NCBI RefSeq assembly: GCF_900182835.1
Contig: NZ_FXUB01000005.1
Coordinates: 1-34,905, forward strand
Direction of reading: 5' to 3'
Source of the DNA: Desulfurobacterium pacificum
GTDB taxonomy: Bacteria > Aquificota > Aquificia > Desulfurobacteriales > Desulfurobacteriaceae
DNA: 34,905 bases
Positions 6,730 through 9,523 of the stretch are shown here, piece by piece (the first letter of the stretch is position 1; each line of letters opens with the position of its first letter). The notes under the pieces were generated by a model, which saw only the letters and a program-made list of their open reading frames with translations, was not told the DNA's origin and ran no database searches. A program made the translations under genes and the position numbers.

Positions 6730-8106
6730 TTAGTAGGGTCTTTTCTTGTAAATCTTCACAGGCTTAACGTACCTATTAACTACTTCTTTCGTTCCGTAAA
6801 CTTTTAGCTGTTCAAAGAGGAATCTGAACTTATCTTCAAGAGCTTTCATCATAGGTTCTTTAACGTCTGCCGGCAAATCCCAGAAATCTTTCTTGAACTT
6901 ACCAAAAGCTTTCTTTCTCGTCTTGTAGATAAACTGTTCCTCTGTCCAGCCCTCTTTCCACTCGTTTTTCAGTTCTGTCTTAAGCCAGTTGTAAATTTCA
7001 TTCTTAAAGTCTTCTGGTAGATGGTCATAAATAATGTTCTGGAAACCTGTAGCGAGGTGAATTTCAGCAGTTTTAACCTCTGGAAACTTGTGGAAGAGTT
7101 CATCAGGTAGCGTTGAAGCGCCGTGCTGGACAGCACCTGCCATTGAATACTTCTTCCTTGCAACTTCCCCTATCTTTTCAAGAACGGAAAAGTCAAGCTT
7201 TACTTTCGCTATACTTCCATCTGGTAGAGGAACGCCTCCATGCTCTGTTCCCGTCTGGACAGAAATCTTGCTTATACCGGGAACATCTCCAGCAGTTTTC
7301 TTAAGCTCTTCAAGGAAACCTTCCATAAAGGCTTCAAACTCTTCCGGCGTTGAGTTTTTACCGCCTATGTGTCCTATCTCTCCGCCGACAGATACCGTTA
7401 CACCTTCAGGTTCAATTTCTCTTATAAAAGCAGTCATCTTAGCCGTGTTAACGTAGTTGTGATACTGCTGCTCCTTTAAAGTCGGTTTGCTGTAATCAAC
7501 CAAAGTAGATGGGTCAATGTCTATGTTGTAGAAGTCTGCTTCTATAGCCTCTTTAGTAAGCGCTTTTATGGATTCAAGCTCTTTTTCAGGGTCTTCTGCA
7601 TACTTTTTGGCGTTAAACTGGAAGTGGTCTCCCTGAATAAAAACAGGACCTTTATAACCTTCTTTTATCGCCGCCGCCAAAGCGCAGGCGGTATATTCAG
7701 CAGGACGCTGGTCTGTATAACCAATCTCGGACTTGGCAATTTCCAAGATAAAAGCACCCATATCCTTTTCAACGGCAATCTTGAAAATCTGCCTCATAAC
7801 GTCGTAGGTAAGCCCCCTTATGTTCATGGCAGGAACGGTAAACCAGAAAGGTATCTCCTCCCTTGCCATTCCGCCGGTGTAAAGGTCGTGAATGGAAGCG
7901 GGAACTATGTCAAGCTCAAGGGCTATAGCCCTTATAAGCCATCTTGCACACGCTTTCTCCTTTTCCTCTCCAAATACAGCAGTGTAAACAAGCCTATCTA
8001 TAAGCTCATCTCTGACTTTCTGTGGGTTGAGGATTTTCACTCTATCTTCGCCAACTTCAACAACGCCGTTTAGAGCGTTCTTAATCTCATCGCACGTAAA
8101 CTGCAT
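6730..8106 (-). CDS. fba: Long-form class II (zinc) fructose-bisphosphate aldolase, 458 aa
   Basis: Class II ketose-bisphosphate aldolase of glycolysis/gluconeogenesis. Candidate metal and catalytic residues: D160-H161 in QGDHFQF, E243 in GGEIGHIGG, H289 in TGTEHGG, H328 in VQHGASTLP, and the IDIDPSTL segment (195-202). The core matches the family, but at 458 aa the protein is about 100 residues longer than E. coli FbaA. The extra sequence is an N-terminal 90-residue helical part and a Trp/Lys-rich C-terminal extension (about 365-458). ATG follows AGGAGG that overlaps the stop of the upstream DUF4388 gene (3-base gap). Substrate could be fructose-, tagatose- or sedoheptulose-bisphosphate; fructose-1,6-bisphosphate is the default. 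In an autotroph it would run in the gluconeogenic direction. Confidence 0.75.
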   Translation of the reverse strand: MQFTCDEIKNALNGVVEVGEDRVKILNPQKVRDELIDRLVYTAVFGEEKEKACARWLIRAIALELDIVPASIHDLYTGGMAREEIPFWFTVPAMNIRGLTYDVMRQIFKIAVEKDMGAFILEIAKSEIGYTDQRPAEYTACALAAAIKEGYKGPVFIQGDHFQFNAKKYAEDPEKELESIKALTKEAIEADFYNIDIDPSTLVDYSKPTLKEQQYHNYVNTAKMTAFIREIEPEGVTVSVGGEIGHIGGKNSTPEEFEAFMEGFLEELKKTAGDVPGISKISVQTGTEHGGVPLPDGSIAKVKLDFSVLEKIGEVARKKYSMAGAVQHGASTLPDELFHKFPEVKTAEIHLATGFQNIIYDHLPEDFKNEIYNWLKTELKNEWKEGWTEEQFIYKTRKKAFGKFKKDFWDLPADVKEPMMKALEDKFRFLFEQLKVYGTKEVVNRYVKPVKIYKKRPY

Positions 8107-8109
8107 TCT

Positions 8110-8991
8110 CTAACCTCCTGTAAGGATTTTTTCAAACTCTTTTCTGAAGCGTTCTCTACAGCTTTCGCCTTCTATGAGGCAGGTTTCGGGGATTTTTTCA
8201 AGCAAAGTATCTATAAACATATTTACCATATCAGGTGACAATTCTCTAACTTCCAAATCCTCAAGAGCTTCATCAACCAAAAACTCACCCATAGGACCCA
8301 TTGCAGAAACTAAAATCTCCTTTATCTTCTCTATCCTTTCTTCTGGAACCTTAGGAATCTCTTCTTTGACTTCTTTCTTTTCTAACTCTTCTCTTTCAAC
8401 TACTTCTGTGGATTCGCAGATAGCTCCTTTATTTAGCAACATCTGTAACTTCTCTACTATTACACCATAAGGAAAAGGAAGAGAAAAAAGTAAACTCTTC
8501 ATACTCTTACCTTTTGCTATCTCTCTCAACAAACGCCATCCAACTCTGTCAATACAAATTTCACCTTGAATATCCTCAGAAAGCTGAAATTTCAGATTAT
8601 CAGCAATAGCTTTTCTAACTTCTTCAGGCGTTTCATCAACTTCTTTTGAAAACTCCATCATAACGCCAACCATATCAACAGAACCTAAATGCTCCCGGGA
8701 AATAGGTTTTTCTACAAAAAGGAACCTACCTCCCTTCCAGAAAGAGATGTAGTGAAGAATAAGCTTTATAGCTTCCTCCAAAGTTAAACTTTGCGATTTA
8801 ACAGCTTCCCTTATATTCAAAACAGCAGGTATGCTGGAGTCAAAGCTTATAGCTTTCCCCTGGTCAAAGTAGACAGTAACACTTCCTTCTTCCCCTCGGA
8901 AATTCATCTCTCCACTTTTCTTACCCATGCTAACTATCTGGATTAGGTCAAGAATCTCTGAAACAGACCTGAACTCTCCCCTTAATTCCAT
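8110..8991 (-). CDS. DUF4388-domain protein with helical C-terminal domain, 293 aa
   Basis: Cytoplasmic protein of unknown function. Residues 1-100 match the DUF4388 (PatA N-terminal-like) pattern: MELRGEFRSVSEILDLIQ, KSGEMNFR, then VTVYFDQGKAISF. Residues about 120-190 form a second helical, winged-helix-like segment (DRVGWRLLREIAKG). After a Glu/Lys/Val-rich linker (195-215), the end (about 220-293) is a helical domain beginning IKEILVSAMGPMGEFLVDEAL. That last block resembles the C-terminus of the divergent 150-aa protein at 9071. DUF4388 proteins often occur with roadblock/MglA-type polarity and signalling modules; no such partner is seen here. Placed just before the aldolase with a 3-base gap, so co-transcribed, though a functional link is not implied. 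Confidence 0.75.
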   Translation of the reverse strand: MELRGEFRSVSEILDLIQIVSMGKKSGEMNFRGEEGSVTVYFDQGKAISFDSSIPAVLNIREAVKSQSLTLEEAIKLILHYISFWKGGRFLFVEKPISREHLGSVDMVGVMMEFSKEVDETPEEVRKAIADNLKFQLSEDIQGEICIDRVGWRLLREIAKGKSMKSLLFSLPFPYGVIVEKLQMLLNKGAICESTEVVEREELEKKEVKEEIPKVPEERIEKIKEILVSAMGPMGEFLVDEALEDLEVRELSPDMVNMFIDTLLEKIPETCLIEGESCRERFRKEFEKILTGG

Positions 8992-9030
8992 TTCTATCTC
9001 CGATTATAGTTTTTACCACACCGCTAATTG

Positions 9031-9036
9031 TATAAT
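9031..9036 (+). promoter_or_regulatory. -10 box for the small protein at 9071
   Basis: A perfect TATAAT 34 bases before the start codon, with an AGGAGA ribosome site at about 9061. A second TATAAT on the opposite strand (9003-9008) sits too close to the divergent start codon to leave a normal leader. No good -35 box is seen for either. Confidence 0.4.
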
Positions 9037-9070
9037 AAACTGATATAAAATTGAACATTGAGGAGAACTA

Positions 9071-9523
9071 ATGGGAACTTCCCTTAATCAAGACATCAAA
9101 TTGGGAAAATCCACCTTCCACGTCCAAACCGAATACTACGCCTCTTCTAAAAAGATAGTTTCCAATATTTTCAAAGATGGAGCAATTGTTAAAAGGTTGG
9201 AGAAAGATATCAGCACTGAAGAAGCAATAGATGAAGAAGTTAAAAACTTTCACGAATCGGTAGTTAGAAAACTCCTCTCAAGACCAAAAAAGAGAAAACT
9301 GGAGCTTTCAAACGAAGTGTTCAACGATATACTGGAACTTGTTTCTCCCCTATTTGGAATAATGTCAACCACAATAGTTGAAGATTGCTTAAAAACGTCA
9401 AATACAGCACAAGACCTCATAAATAGTCTAAAGAAAGAGCTTACAGAAGATGAAGCTAAAGAAGTAATACCTAAGGTTATAGCTCTCTTAGAACTTAACG
9501 GATATTCTATCAATAAGGATTGA
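9071..9523 (+). CDS. Conserved small protein with FHVQTE-type N-terminal motif, 150 aa
   Basis: Function unknown. The N-terminal 50 residues (GTSLNQDI, then FHVQTEYY, then IVSNIFKDGAIVKRL) look like a small beta-rich domain. I recall comparable HVQTE-containing short proteins in deltaproteobacteria and their relatives but cannot name the family. Residues about 80-140 are helical and contain ILELVSPLFGIMSTTIVEDCL, which resembles the C-terminal domain of the divergently transcribed DUF4388 protein. There is no signal peptide or membrane segment, so it is cytoplasmic. The start is clear: AGGAGA just upstream. It ends 2 bases from the convergent mqnA gene with no obvious hairpin between them. 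Confidence 0.8.
   Translation: MGTSLNQDIKLGKSTFHVQTEYYASSKKIVSNIFKDGAIVKRLEKDISTEEAIDEEVKNFHESVVRKLLSRPKKRKLELSNEVFNDILELVSPLFGIMSTTIVEDCLKTSNTAQDLINSLKKELTEDEAKEVIPKVIALLELNGYSINKD

Follow-up and report, generated by a model that had tools for sequence, protein, structure and literature searches.

What do two divergently transcribed genes at the start of a contig have in common, and could they act together? The window analysed here is the whole stretch from base 1 to base 34,905 of contig C5 of Desulfurobacterium pacificum (1.59-Mb genome, estimated 99.92% complete). One of the two genes encodes a protein of 293 amino acids (aa), here called A, and the other a protein of 150 aa, called B. 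An earlier reading made from the letters of the window (the sequence-only reading) had found their C-termini similar and proposed that the pair forms one small signalling or polarity module. By profile comparison, A and B have one C-terminal domain in common (the C-domain), which in A is a probable STAC domain and which in two other families lies beside HAMP receptors and Ras-like GTPases. We propose that A and B may be adaptors between a membrane receptor and the GTPase MglA. Comparisons were made over 136 genomes of the phylum, 22 from the Desulfurobacteriaceae (f1) and 114 from outside f1; f3 and f4 denote two other families of the same class.

A Common C-Terminal Domain in A and B

As single sequences, the C-termini of A and B aligned at chance level (Smith-Waterman score 31, reached by 543 of 3000 shuffles; BLASTP expect value, E, 0.45), so that profiles were needed to show the domain. 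Relatives of A were taken from 15 of the 22 f1 genomes and 15 B proteins were used for the profile comparison. With hhalign, the A C-terminus (15 sequences) matched the B repeats (28 segments) with a probability of 92.2 and a score of 37.0, compared to a mean of 10.0 in 300 column shuffles (standard deviation 2.1, maximum 19.9) and scores of 12.5 and 11.1 when one side was reversed. Windows of A that did not reach the C-domain scored 18.8 or less against the B repeats, and the match of the A C-terminus to the second B repeats only was weaker (probability 35.7, score 24.6). A second set of C-domains, consisting of 13 sequences from f3/f4 and two from genus g4 of f1, scored 35.8 against the B repeats (maximum of 200 shuffles 18.5), and all 30 C-domains together scored 44.0 (shuffles up to 16.9). 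The similarity of the C-termini claimed from the sequence was thus confirmed by comparison of hidden Markov models, which found homology that the single-sequence alignment did not reveal.

A profile of B repeats only (A3, built from 19 of the 28 segments) was also run over the 22 whole f1 genomes. The A C-terminus was the best non-B match, in the same register, in nine of the 15 genomes with A (E 0.001-0.044), and was not listed at E ≤ 1 in the other six. No Pfam or NCBIfam model matched the C-domain of the window's A and B over its cut-off, and the C-domains of the relatives gave scattered weak library matches in one or two members. A GP motif was present in 30/30 C-domain sequences, and the model of A has four helices with a break at GP. 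Two FG(I/V) repeats were counted in 12 of the 15 B proteins, three in one, one in the window's B and none in genome G009, where B is a 78-aa stub.

The C-Domain Resembles STAC Domains

Searched against PDB sequences, the combined C-domain profile (A7) had as its best match AF1502 of Archaeoglobus (5a1q; E 3.5e-4), with the next match at 1.5. A profile made from f3/f4 C-domains only also ranked AF1502 first (E 0.0077, next 0.32). Alignment of the A model (residues 216-292) to 5a1q with VIA-align gave a Z of 5.9 and a root mean square deviation of 3.1 over 68/68 AF1502 residues. STAC proteins such as AF1502 are described, in passages of PMC4834066, as four-helix bundles whose first two helices are joined by an LGPx(x)A motif and which are genomically coupled to effector-less HAMP receptors, AF1502 being coupled to Af1503. 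The C-domain of A likewise has four helices in its model, with GP where the first passes into the second, and coupling to an effector-less HAMP receptor was found for A in its relatives and for the C-domain in f3/f4, though not in the window's genome. The AF1502 profile match, together with GP at the same helix junction and the HAMP linkage, is why we name the C-domain STAC-like. The original paper on STAC domains is reportedly that of Korycinski in 2015. On these grounds the C-domain of A is a probable STAC domain, and that of B, for which membership rests on the profile link between A and B, is called STAC-like. A passage of PMC13022988 still describes what STAC domains do as unclear.

It is unlikely that the STAC match arose by chance and that the C-domain is an unrelated, Aquificota-specific helical bundle which binds the GTPase or roadblock protein and not the receptor. 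Helical bundles match easily in structure, and a Z of 5.9 is in the range of common ones, adenylosuccinate lyases reaching 5.1-5.2 over the same residues of A. The Foldseek match of AF1502 to A was weak (E 0.62, rank 31), with nothing at E ≤ 0.001 in the PDB for the model of either A or B, and neither the f1-only C-domain profile nor the B-repeat-only profile matched AF1502 at E ≤ 10. Against a chance match stand the first rank of AF1502 with both other profiles, well separated from the next match in each, and the GP motif at the same helix junction. The effector-less HAMP context had also been established before the sequence match, though AF1502 stood unremarked at its Foldseek rank. VIA-align of the B model covered mainly the N-terminal part (best Z 6.1, common folds). 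Two PDB matches of the B-family profile, to a phosphorylase (E 0.0017) and to trigger factor (E 0.3), were taken as chance.

A Receptor Without an Output Domain Is Linked to A

In nine relatives (L057-L063, L066 and, in genome G017, L051), the gene directly behind A overlaps it by about 10 bases and encodes a protein of 323-330 aa. The two copies scanned, that of L057 and that of the window's genome (L083), have a Tll0287-like heme c sensor domain with CXXCH followed by HAMP. Little follows HAMP in this protein beyond a conserved tail, and the Pfam scans of receptors gave no match to a kinase domain. A full-length receptor (profile E ≤ 1e-10) was present in 14 of the 15 genomes with full-length A (13 whole and one, in G001, split over two contigs) and in 0/7 f1 genomes without full-length A, and the receptor gene adjoins A in 13/15. 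A receptor that lacks an output part has to be read by something in the cytoplasm, and the STAC-like proteins are placed to do so.

The receptor copy of the window's genome (L083:4318-5289) is followed by aldolase-like and tyrA-like genes, as in the relatives, which indicates a rearrangement between A and the receptor. Within the window, a class II fructose-bisphosphate aldolase-like gene (6730-8106) lies 3 bp behind A and occupies the place that the receptor has in the relatives. Divergent A-like proteins carrying a GPIA motif, 276 and 273 aa long, are encoded in two genomes without full-length A (L076:3972-5230, L077:2163-3412). Each of these genes is followed by one for a 143-aa protein with a HAMP-like tail, for which the one copy scanned had no Pfam match at E ≤ 0.01.

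The C-Domain Beside Ras-Like GTPases in f3 and f4

Outside f1, the A profile had matches in 22 of 114 genomes, in each case to the C-terminal end of a protein other than A. Regions from 12 of these genomes were read (eight in f3, four in f4), in which the C-domain proteins are 321-421 aa long. The usual gene order in the eight f3 regions is roadblock, GTPase, C-domain protein, receptor, with the order C-domain protein, receptor, roadblock as an exception in L079, L081 and a second copy in L068. In the four f4 regions the usual order is short HAMP protein, C-domain protein, roadblock, PATAN protein, GTPase. A HAMP-type gene adjoined the C-domain gene in 12/12 regions. The regions also contained a Ras-like GTPase gene in 11/12 (all but L081, a contig of 3.5 kb), a roadblock gene in 11/12 (not seen in L078) and a PATAN gene in 4/12.

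The HAMP assignment was over the Pfam cut-off in 10/10 f3/f4 regions tested, and the GTPase and roadblock assignments in 2/2. The sensor part of ten receptors scanned was Tll0287-like in five and dCache_3 in three, and none was found in two, both from f4. One f3 GTPase matched solved MglA with an E of 4e-35; the f4 GTPase tested matched the ATP_bind_1, Arf and Ras models. Ahead of the C-domain, the N-terminus of the f3 proteins scored 22.4 against PATAN (shuffles up to 21.7), and that of the f4 protein resembles roadblock (28.6, shuffles up to 22.4). The PATAN domain of A matched f4 PATAN with a score of 34.6 (shuffles up to 18.6; 60 shuffles in each of these three comparisons).

In one f3 region (L068:3078-8501), two C-domain/HAMP pairs lie around a single roadblock-GTPase pair, one receptor having dCache_3 and the other CXXCH, which suggests two inputs to one GTPase. 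In two f4 regions, three genes past the HAMP gene and in its orientation, lies a gene of the sodium:neurotransmitter symporter family (SNF; L072:6555-8096, L074:286-1827). It is the sole transporter gene noted nearby in the present case and deserves mention since STAC domains also occur in systems tied to transporters, including fusions between a transporter and a kinase.

N-Terminal Domains of A and B and Their Likely Partners

The N-termini had been taken for two different sensors, a reading that calls for correction. From their family matches they look like output or effector domains, RomY-type in B and PATAN in A, and the likely sensor is a third protein, the Cache-HAMP receptor. RomY boosts the GTPase-activating protein (GAP) activity of MglB on MglA in Myxococcus, and its N-terminal region suffices for partial activity, as passages of PMC9481161 report. 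The PATAN domain of Synechocystis response regulators binds the pilus motor PilB (passages of PMC10519157). An mglB-mglA pair is present in the window's genome (L046), its MglA matching solved MglA with an E of 3.6e-75. Roadblock matches and T2SSE-type ATPase matches were each found in 22/22 f1 genomes; since the T2SSE profile is unspecific, pili in these genomes are likely, not proven. The sequence-only proposal of a signalling or polarity module is partly supported by these results, polarity being pointed to by the RomY-type domain of B and by the position of the C-domain beside Ras-like GTPase and roadblock genes in the other families.

Further RomY-like proteins of about 200 aa (L047:7201-9066, L048:3125-4827, L049:3015-4241) share their gene clusters with a short protein of roadblock type and one of 68-76 aa, and the L047 cluster also has an MglA-like GTPase. 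Pfam gave nothing at E ≤ 0.01 for the one 76-aa cluster protein scanned. In G018 and G007, RomY-like proteins encoded next to roadblock genes match B (E 2e-9 to 5.5e-4) but not the RomY_Nterm model NF053858, and they were used as weak support. Genus g4 has the RomY-type domain fused to a response-regulator receiver-like part in proteins of 331-346 aa (L067:4974-6014, L017, L019, L023, L024; scanned in L067 only), as well as RomY-type versions of 137-227 aa, some of them rich in PGE/PGK repeats (L018, L020-L022). In L030 and L031 the domain is fused within a protein of 530-553 aa. Two metagenome-assembled genomes labelled Acidobacteria encode B-like proteins with FG repeats (L064:1158-1874, L065:334-1032; RomY_Nterm E 8.5e-6 and 2.7e-6), and a DUF4388 protein is encoded three genes downstream of the B-like gene (Pfam-confirmed in L064). 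No convincing A-type C-domain was found in these two genomes (best E 0.006 and 0.056, partial).

The A-B Locus

The features of the locus are listed in Table 1. Full-length A and a B-type relative occur together in 15/15 genomes with A (B being the stub in G009), which bears out the co-occurrence expected if the two families belong together. They are divergent and 64-92 bp apart by match coordinates in 14/15 of these genomes, and A and B sit on separate contigs in G017.

Table 1. Features of A, B and the gap between them, in window positions (ORF, open reading frame; pLDDT, predicted local distance difference test; HTH, helix-turn-helix).
Feature	Position	Strand	Basis
Protein A, 293 aa: PATAN/DUF4388, middle winged-helix-like part and C-terminal STAC-like domain	8110..8991	-	ORF; Pfam DUF4388 E 4e-11; model pLDDT 85.6
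A residues 216-292, C-terminal four-helix STAC-like domain	8116..8346	-	hhalign to B repeats; combined profile A7 against PDB 5a1q AF1502; VIA-align to 5a1q
A residues 231-235, MGPMG, GP motif between helices 1 and 2 of the C-domain	8287..8301	-	invariant columns of alignment A2; model helices 217-231 and 234-245
A residues 131-196, winged-helix-like region, fold match only	8404..8601	-	VIA-align to winged-helix/HTH-type chains, Z up to 6.3, maybe just a common arrangement
A residues 11-120, PATAN (DUF4388) domain	8632..8961	-	PF14332 E 4e-11, 43.5 bits, cut-off 25; in 15/15 A2 members at E ≤ 0.1
Gap of 79 bp between divergent start codons	8992..9070	.	one TATAAT per strand: 9031-9036 (+), 9008-9003 (-)
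Protein B, 150 aa: RomY-type N-terminal domain and one STAC-like repeat	9071..9523	+	ORF; model pLDDT 89.1
B residues 3-68, RomY-type N-terminal domain	9077..9274	+	NF053858 E 1.2e-7, 32 bits, curated cut-off 50; 12/12 A1 members match at E ≤ 0.01
B C-terminal STAC-like repeat, FGIM in place of A's MGPMG	9302..9493	+	profile A3 (this segment included) E 2.7e-21; model helices 81-109, 113-123 and 126-142

The coordinates of both ORFs, the divergent layout, the gene lengths and the 79-base gap are as the sequence-only reading gave them, and the two C-terminal segments that it quotes occur in the proteins, but the gap could not be established as a promoter region. A sigma-70 promoter scan gave 0 sites in the gap, and the count over the region was not above shuffles, although the gap holds one exact TATAAT per strand. 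A short gap between divergent genes in 14/15 genomes would suit a role of A mainly as a DNA-binding regulator, its winged-helix-like part acting on the gap to control B (and A) with PATAN and the C-domain as input. The fold matches of residues 131-196 also point that way, as does a similarity of residues 144-188 to the NCBIfam model of the fimbrial regulator FimY that stayed below threshold (E 0.004, 16.9 of 300 bits). We consider such a role very unlikely: a Z of about 6 may reflect only a common arrangement, no HTH model was over its cut-off for the window's A, A and B are on different contigs in G017, and the f3/f4 C-domain proteins adjoin GTPases.

The layout would equally suit a C-domain that is a pairing module, in which binding of A to B (or of each to itself) makes a complex of PATAN and RomY parts that connects the pilus motor with MglA/MglB, with no receptor input and the HAMP gene a mere neighbour. 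The same type of domain in both proteins, their divergent neighbourhood, B relatives with up to three copies of the repeat and the distance of the receptor gene in the window's genome are all consistent with this. It is nonetheless improbable, given that the f3/f4 C-domains lie beside HAMP receptors while RomY-N matched 0/114 phylum genomes outside f1 (E ≤ 0.001), and that AF1502 is reported to be monomeric (passages of PMC4834066).

The locus could also be an ordinary syntenic remnant, with B decaying in the lineage of the window and any joint function of A and B gone there. The window's B has one repeat where 13 relatives have two or three, its receptor gene has become separated, G009 has lost all repeats and the receptor, and the flanking genes are conserved as well. 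With both ORFs intact, A at full length with its GPMG motif, and a full-length receptor retained elsewhere on the contig, we give this explanation very little credence.

Proposed Model and Points That Weigh Against It

We return to the reading in which A and B are two cytoplasmic adaptors in a signalling module leading from a membrane receptor to a Ras-like GTPase. The receptor would be a c-heme (sCache_heme/Tll0287-like) sensor with HAMP and no output domain, and the STAC-type C-domains of A and B may sense which state the HAMP dimer is in, either alongside each other or as competitors. The state of the heme sensor would, via HAMP, free or hold A and B. B could then bring its RomY-type domain to MglB/MglA, raising GTP hydrolysis by MglA, and the PATAN domain of A could act on PilB, the motor of type IV pili, so that an outside chemical signal (nitric oxide or redox state) would jointly reset the polarity GTPase and the activity of the pili. 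What was observed is the common C-domain, the domain assignments (RomY-N below its cut-off), the f3/f4 linkage, the co-occurrence of the receptor with A and the mglB-mglA pair; the contacts between the proteins, the sequence of events, the ligand and the output are all inferred.

Several observations weigh against this model. At the place of the GP motif, B has FGI/FGV, with G but no P, and its model has one unbroken helix; the window's B also carries a single repeat. NF053858 matched 19 of the 136 phylum genomes, all in f1, and none of the 136 over the curated cut-off. In the window's genome the HAMP of the receptor is under the Pfam cut-off (22 vs 25 bits), the receptor gene is not next to A (C5:64817-65785, about 56 kb away on the same contig and outside the window) and mglBA lies at a different locus from A and B. 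The receptor is missing in G009, where B is the stub, and several of the genomes without A or receptor are incomplete (62-89%: G008, G013, G014, G016). The flanking genes in f1 (mqnA, tyrA-like) are conserved as well, so that the adjacency of A and B partly reflects general synteny and is weaker evidence than it appears. The T2SSE and Arf profiles matched 14/14 and 12/14 control genomes, and a literature search gave no paper pairing 'Desulfurobacteri' with 'twitching'.

Weighing these points, we hold the whole path from the receptor through the STAC-type adaptors A/B to MglA/MglB and type IV pili to be somewhat more probable than not. Our confidence was slightly lowered because the second C-domain set came partly from f1 (g4) and because the ATPase profile is unspecific. 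More tentative, and in our judgement falling short of an even chance, is the specific claim of a kinase-free pathway in which a heme (nitric oxide or redox) sensor with a bare HAMP would control MglA/MglB via STAC-type adaptors, one RomY-type (GAP-stimulating) and the other with PATAN (pilus-motor-binding).

Comparison With Known Systems

The archaeal pair Af1503/AF1502 has, as here, an output-less HAMP receptor translationally coupled to a small four-helix GP-motif protein, and AF1502 is itself the best PDB match of the combined profile. It differs in that the STAC-like domain is here part of fusion proteins, with PATAN in A, RomY-N in B and other N-termini elsewhere, and in that f3/f4 add a Ras-like GTPase and a roadblock protein alongside. 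With RomY and MglA-MglB of Myxococcus xanthus, the present system shares the RomY-type N-terminal domain of B and the presence of MglA and MglB in the same genome, while B adds a STAC-like repeat and all scores are below the curated RomY cut-off.

Conservons (CvnABCD), an actinobacterial arrangement (PMC4316618, PMC13343842), resemble the f3/f4 clusters in having a HAMP membrane sensor, an MglB-type roadblock protein, a further protein and a Ras-like GTPase side by side. In f3/f4 the receptor ends after HAMP without a histidine kinase part and the fourth protein has a STAC-like domain, and the identification of these clusters as conservons was rejected for lack of a histidine kinase. Like the PATAN regulators of type IV pili in cyanobacteria (PixG, PixE), A has a PATAN domain; it differs from them in having no Pfam receiver domain and in its C-terminal STAC-like domain. 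MglA genes are occasionally near PATAN genes, according to passages of PMC4316618. Finally, the receptor beside A has a Tll0287-like domain with CXXCH and HAMP, as does the HAMP-bearing sCache_heme (DUF3365/Tll0287) protein of P. azotoformans, which binds nitric oxide (passages of the preprint PMC12889525). Nitric oxide would be a candidate ligand here. The f3/f4 receptors vary in sensor type.

The module had been called one without a described function. Its parts (the RomY-N, PATAN and STAC families) are published, and no description was found of their combination. A search of open-access literature gave no paper recognised as dealing with the combination or with STAC-like domains and MglA-type GTPases.

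Significance

Receptors ending in HAMP have no recognised effector, and the arrangement described here names partners for them: a Ras-like GTPase, a roadblock GAP and PATAN- or RomY-type effectors. As the C-domain arrangement spans three families of one phylum, the partner of the receptor becomes a direct question of binding, and proteins from these thermophiles should be good subjects for structural studies. If the model is true, effector-less HAMP receptors would gain a downstream pathway, the STAC domain would be a general coupler from receptor to GTPase, and the MglA polarity switch would gain a defined environmental input.

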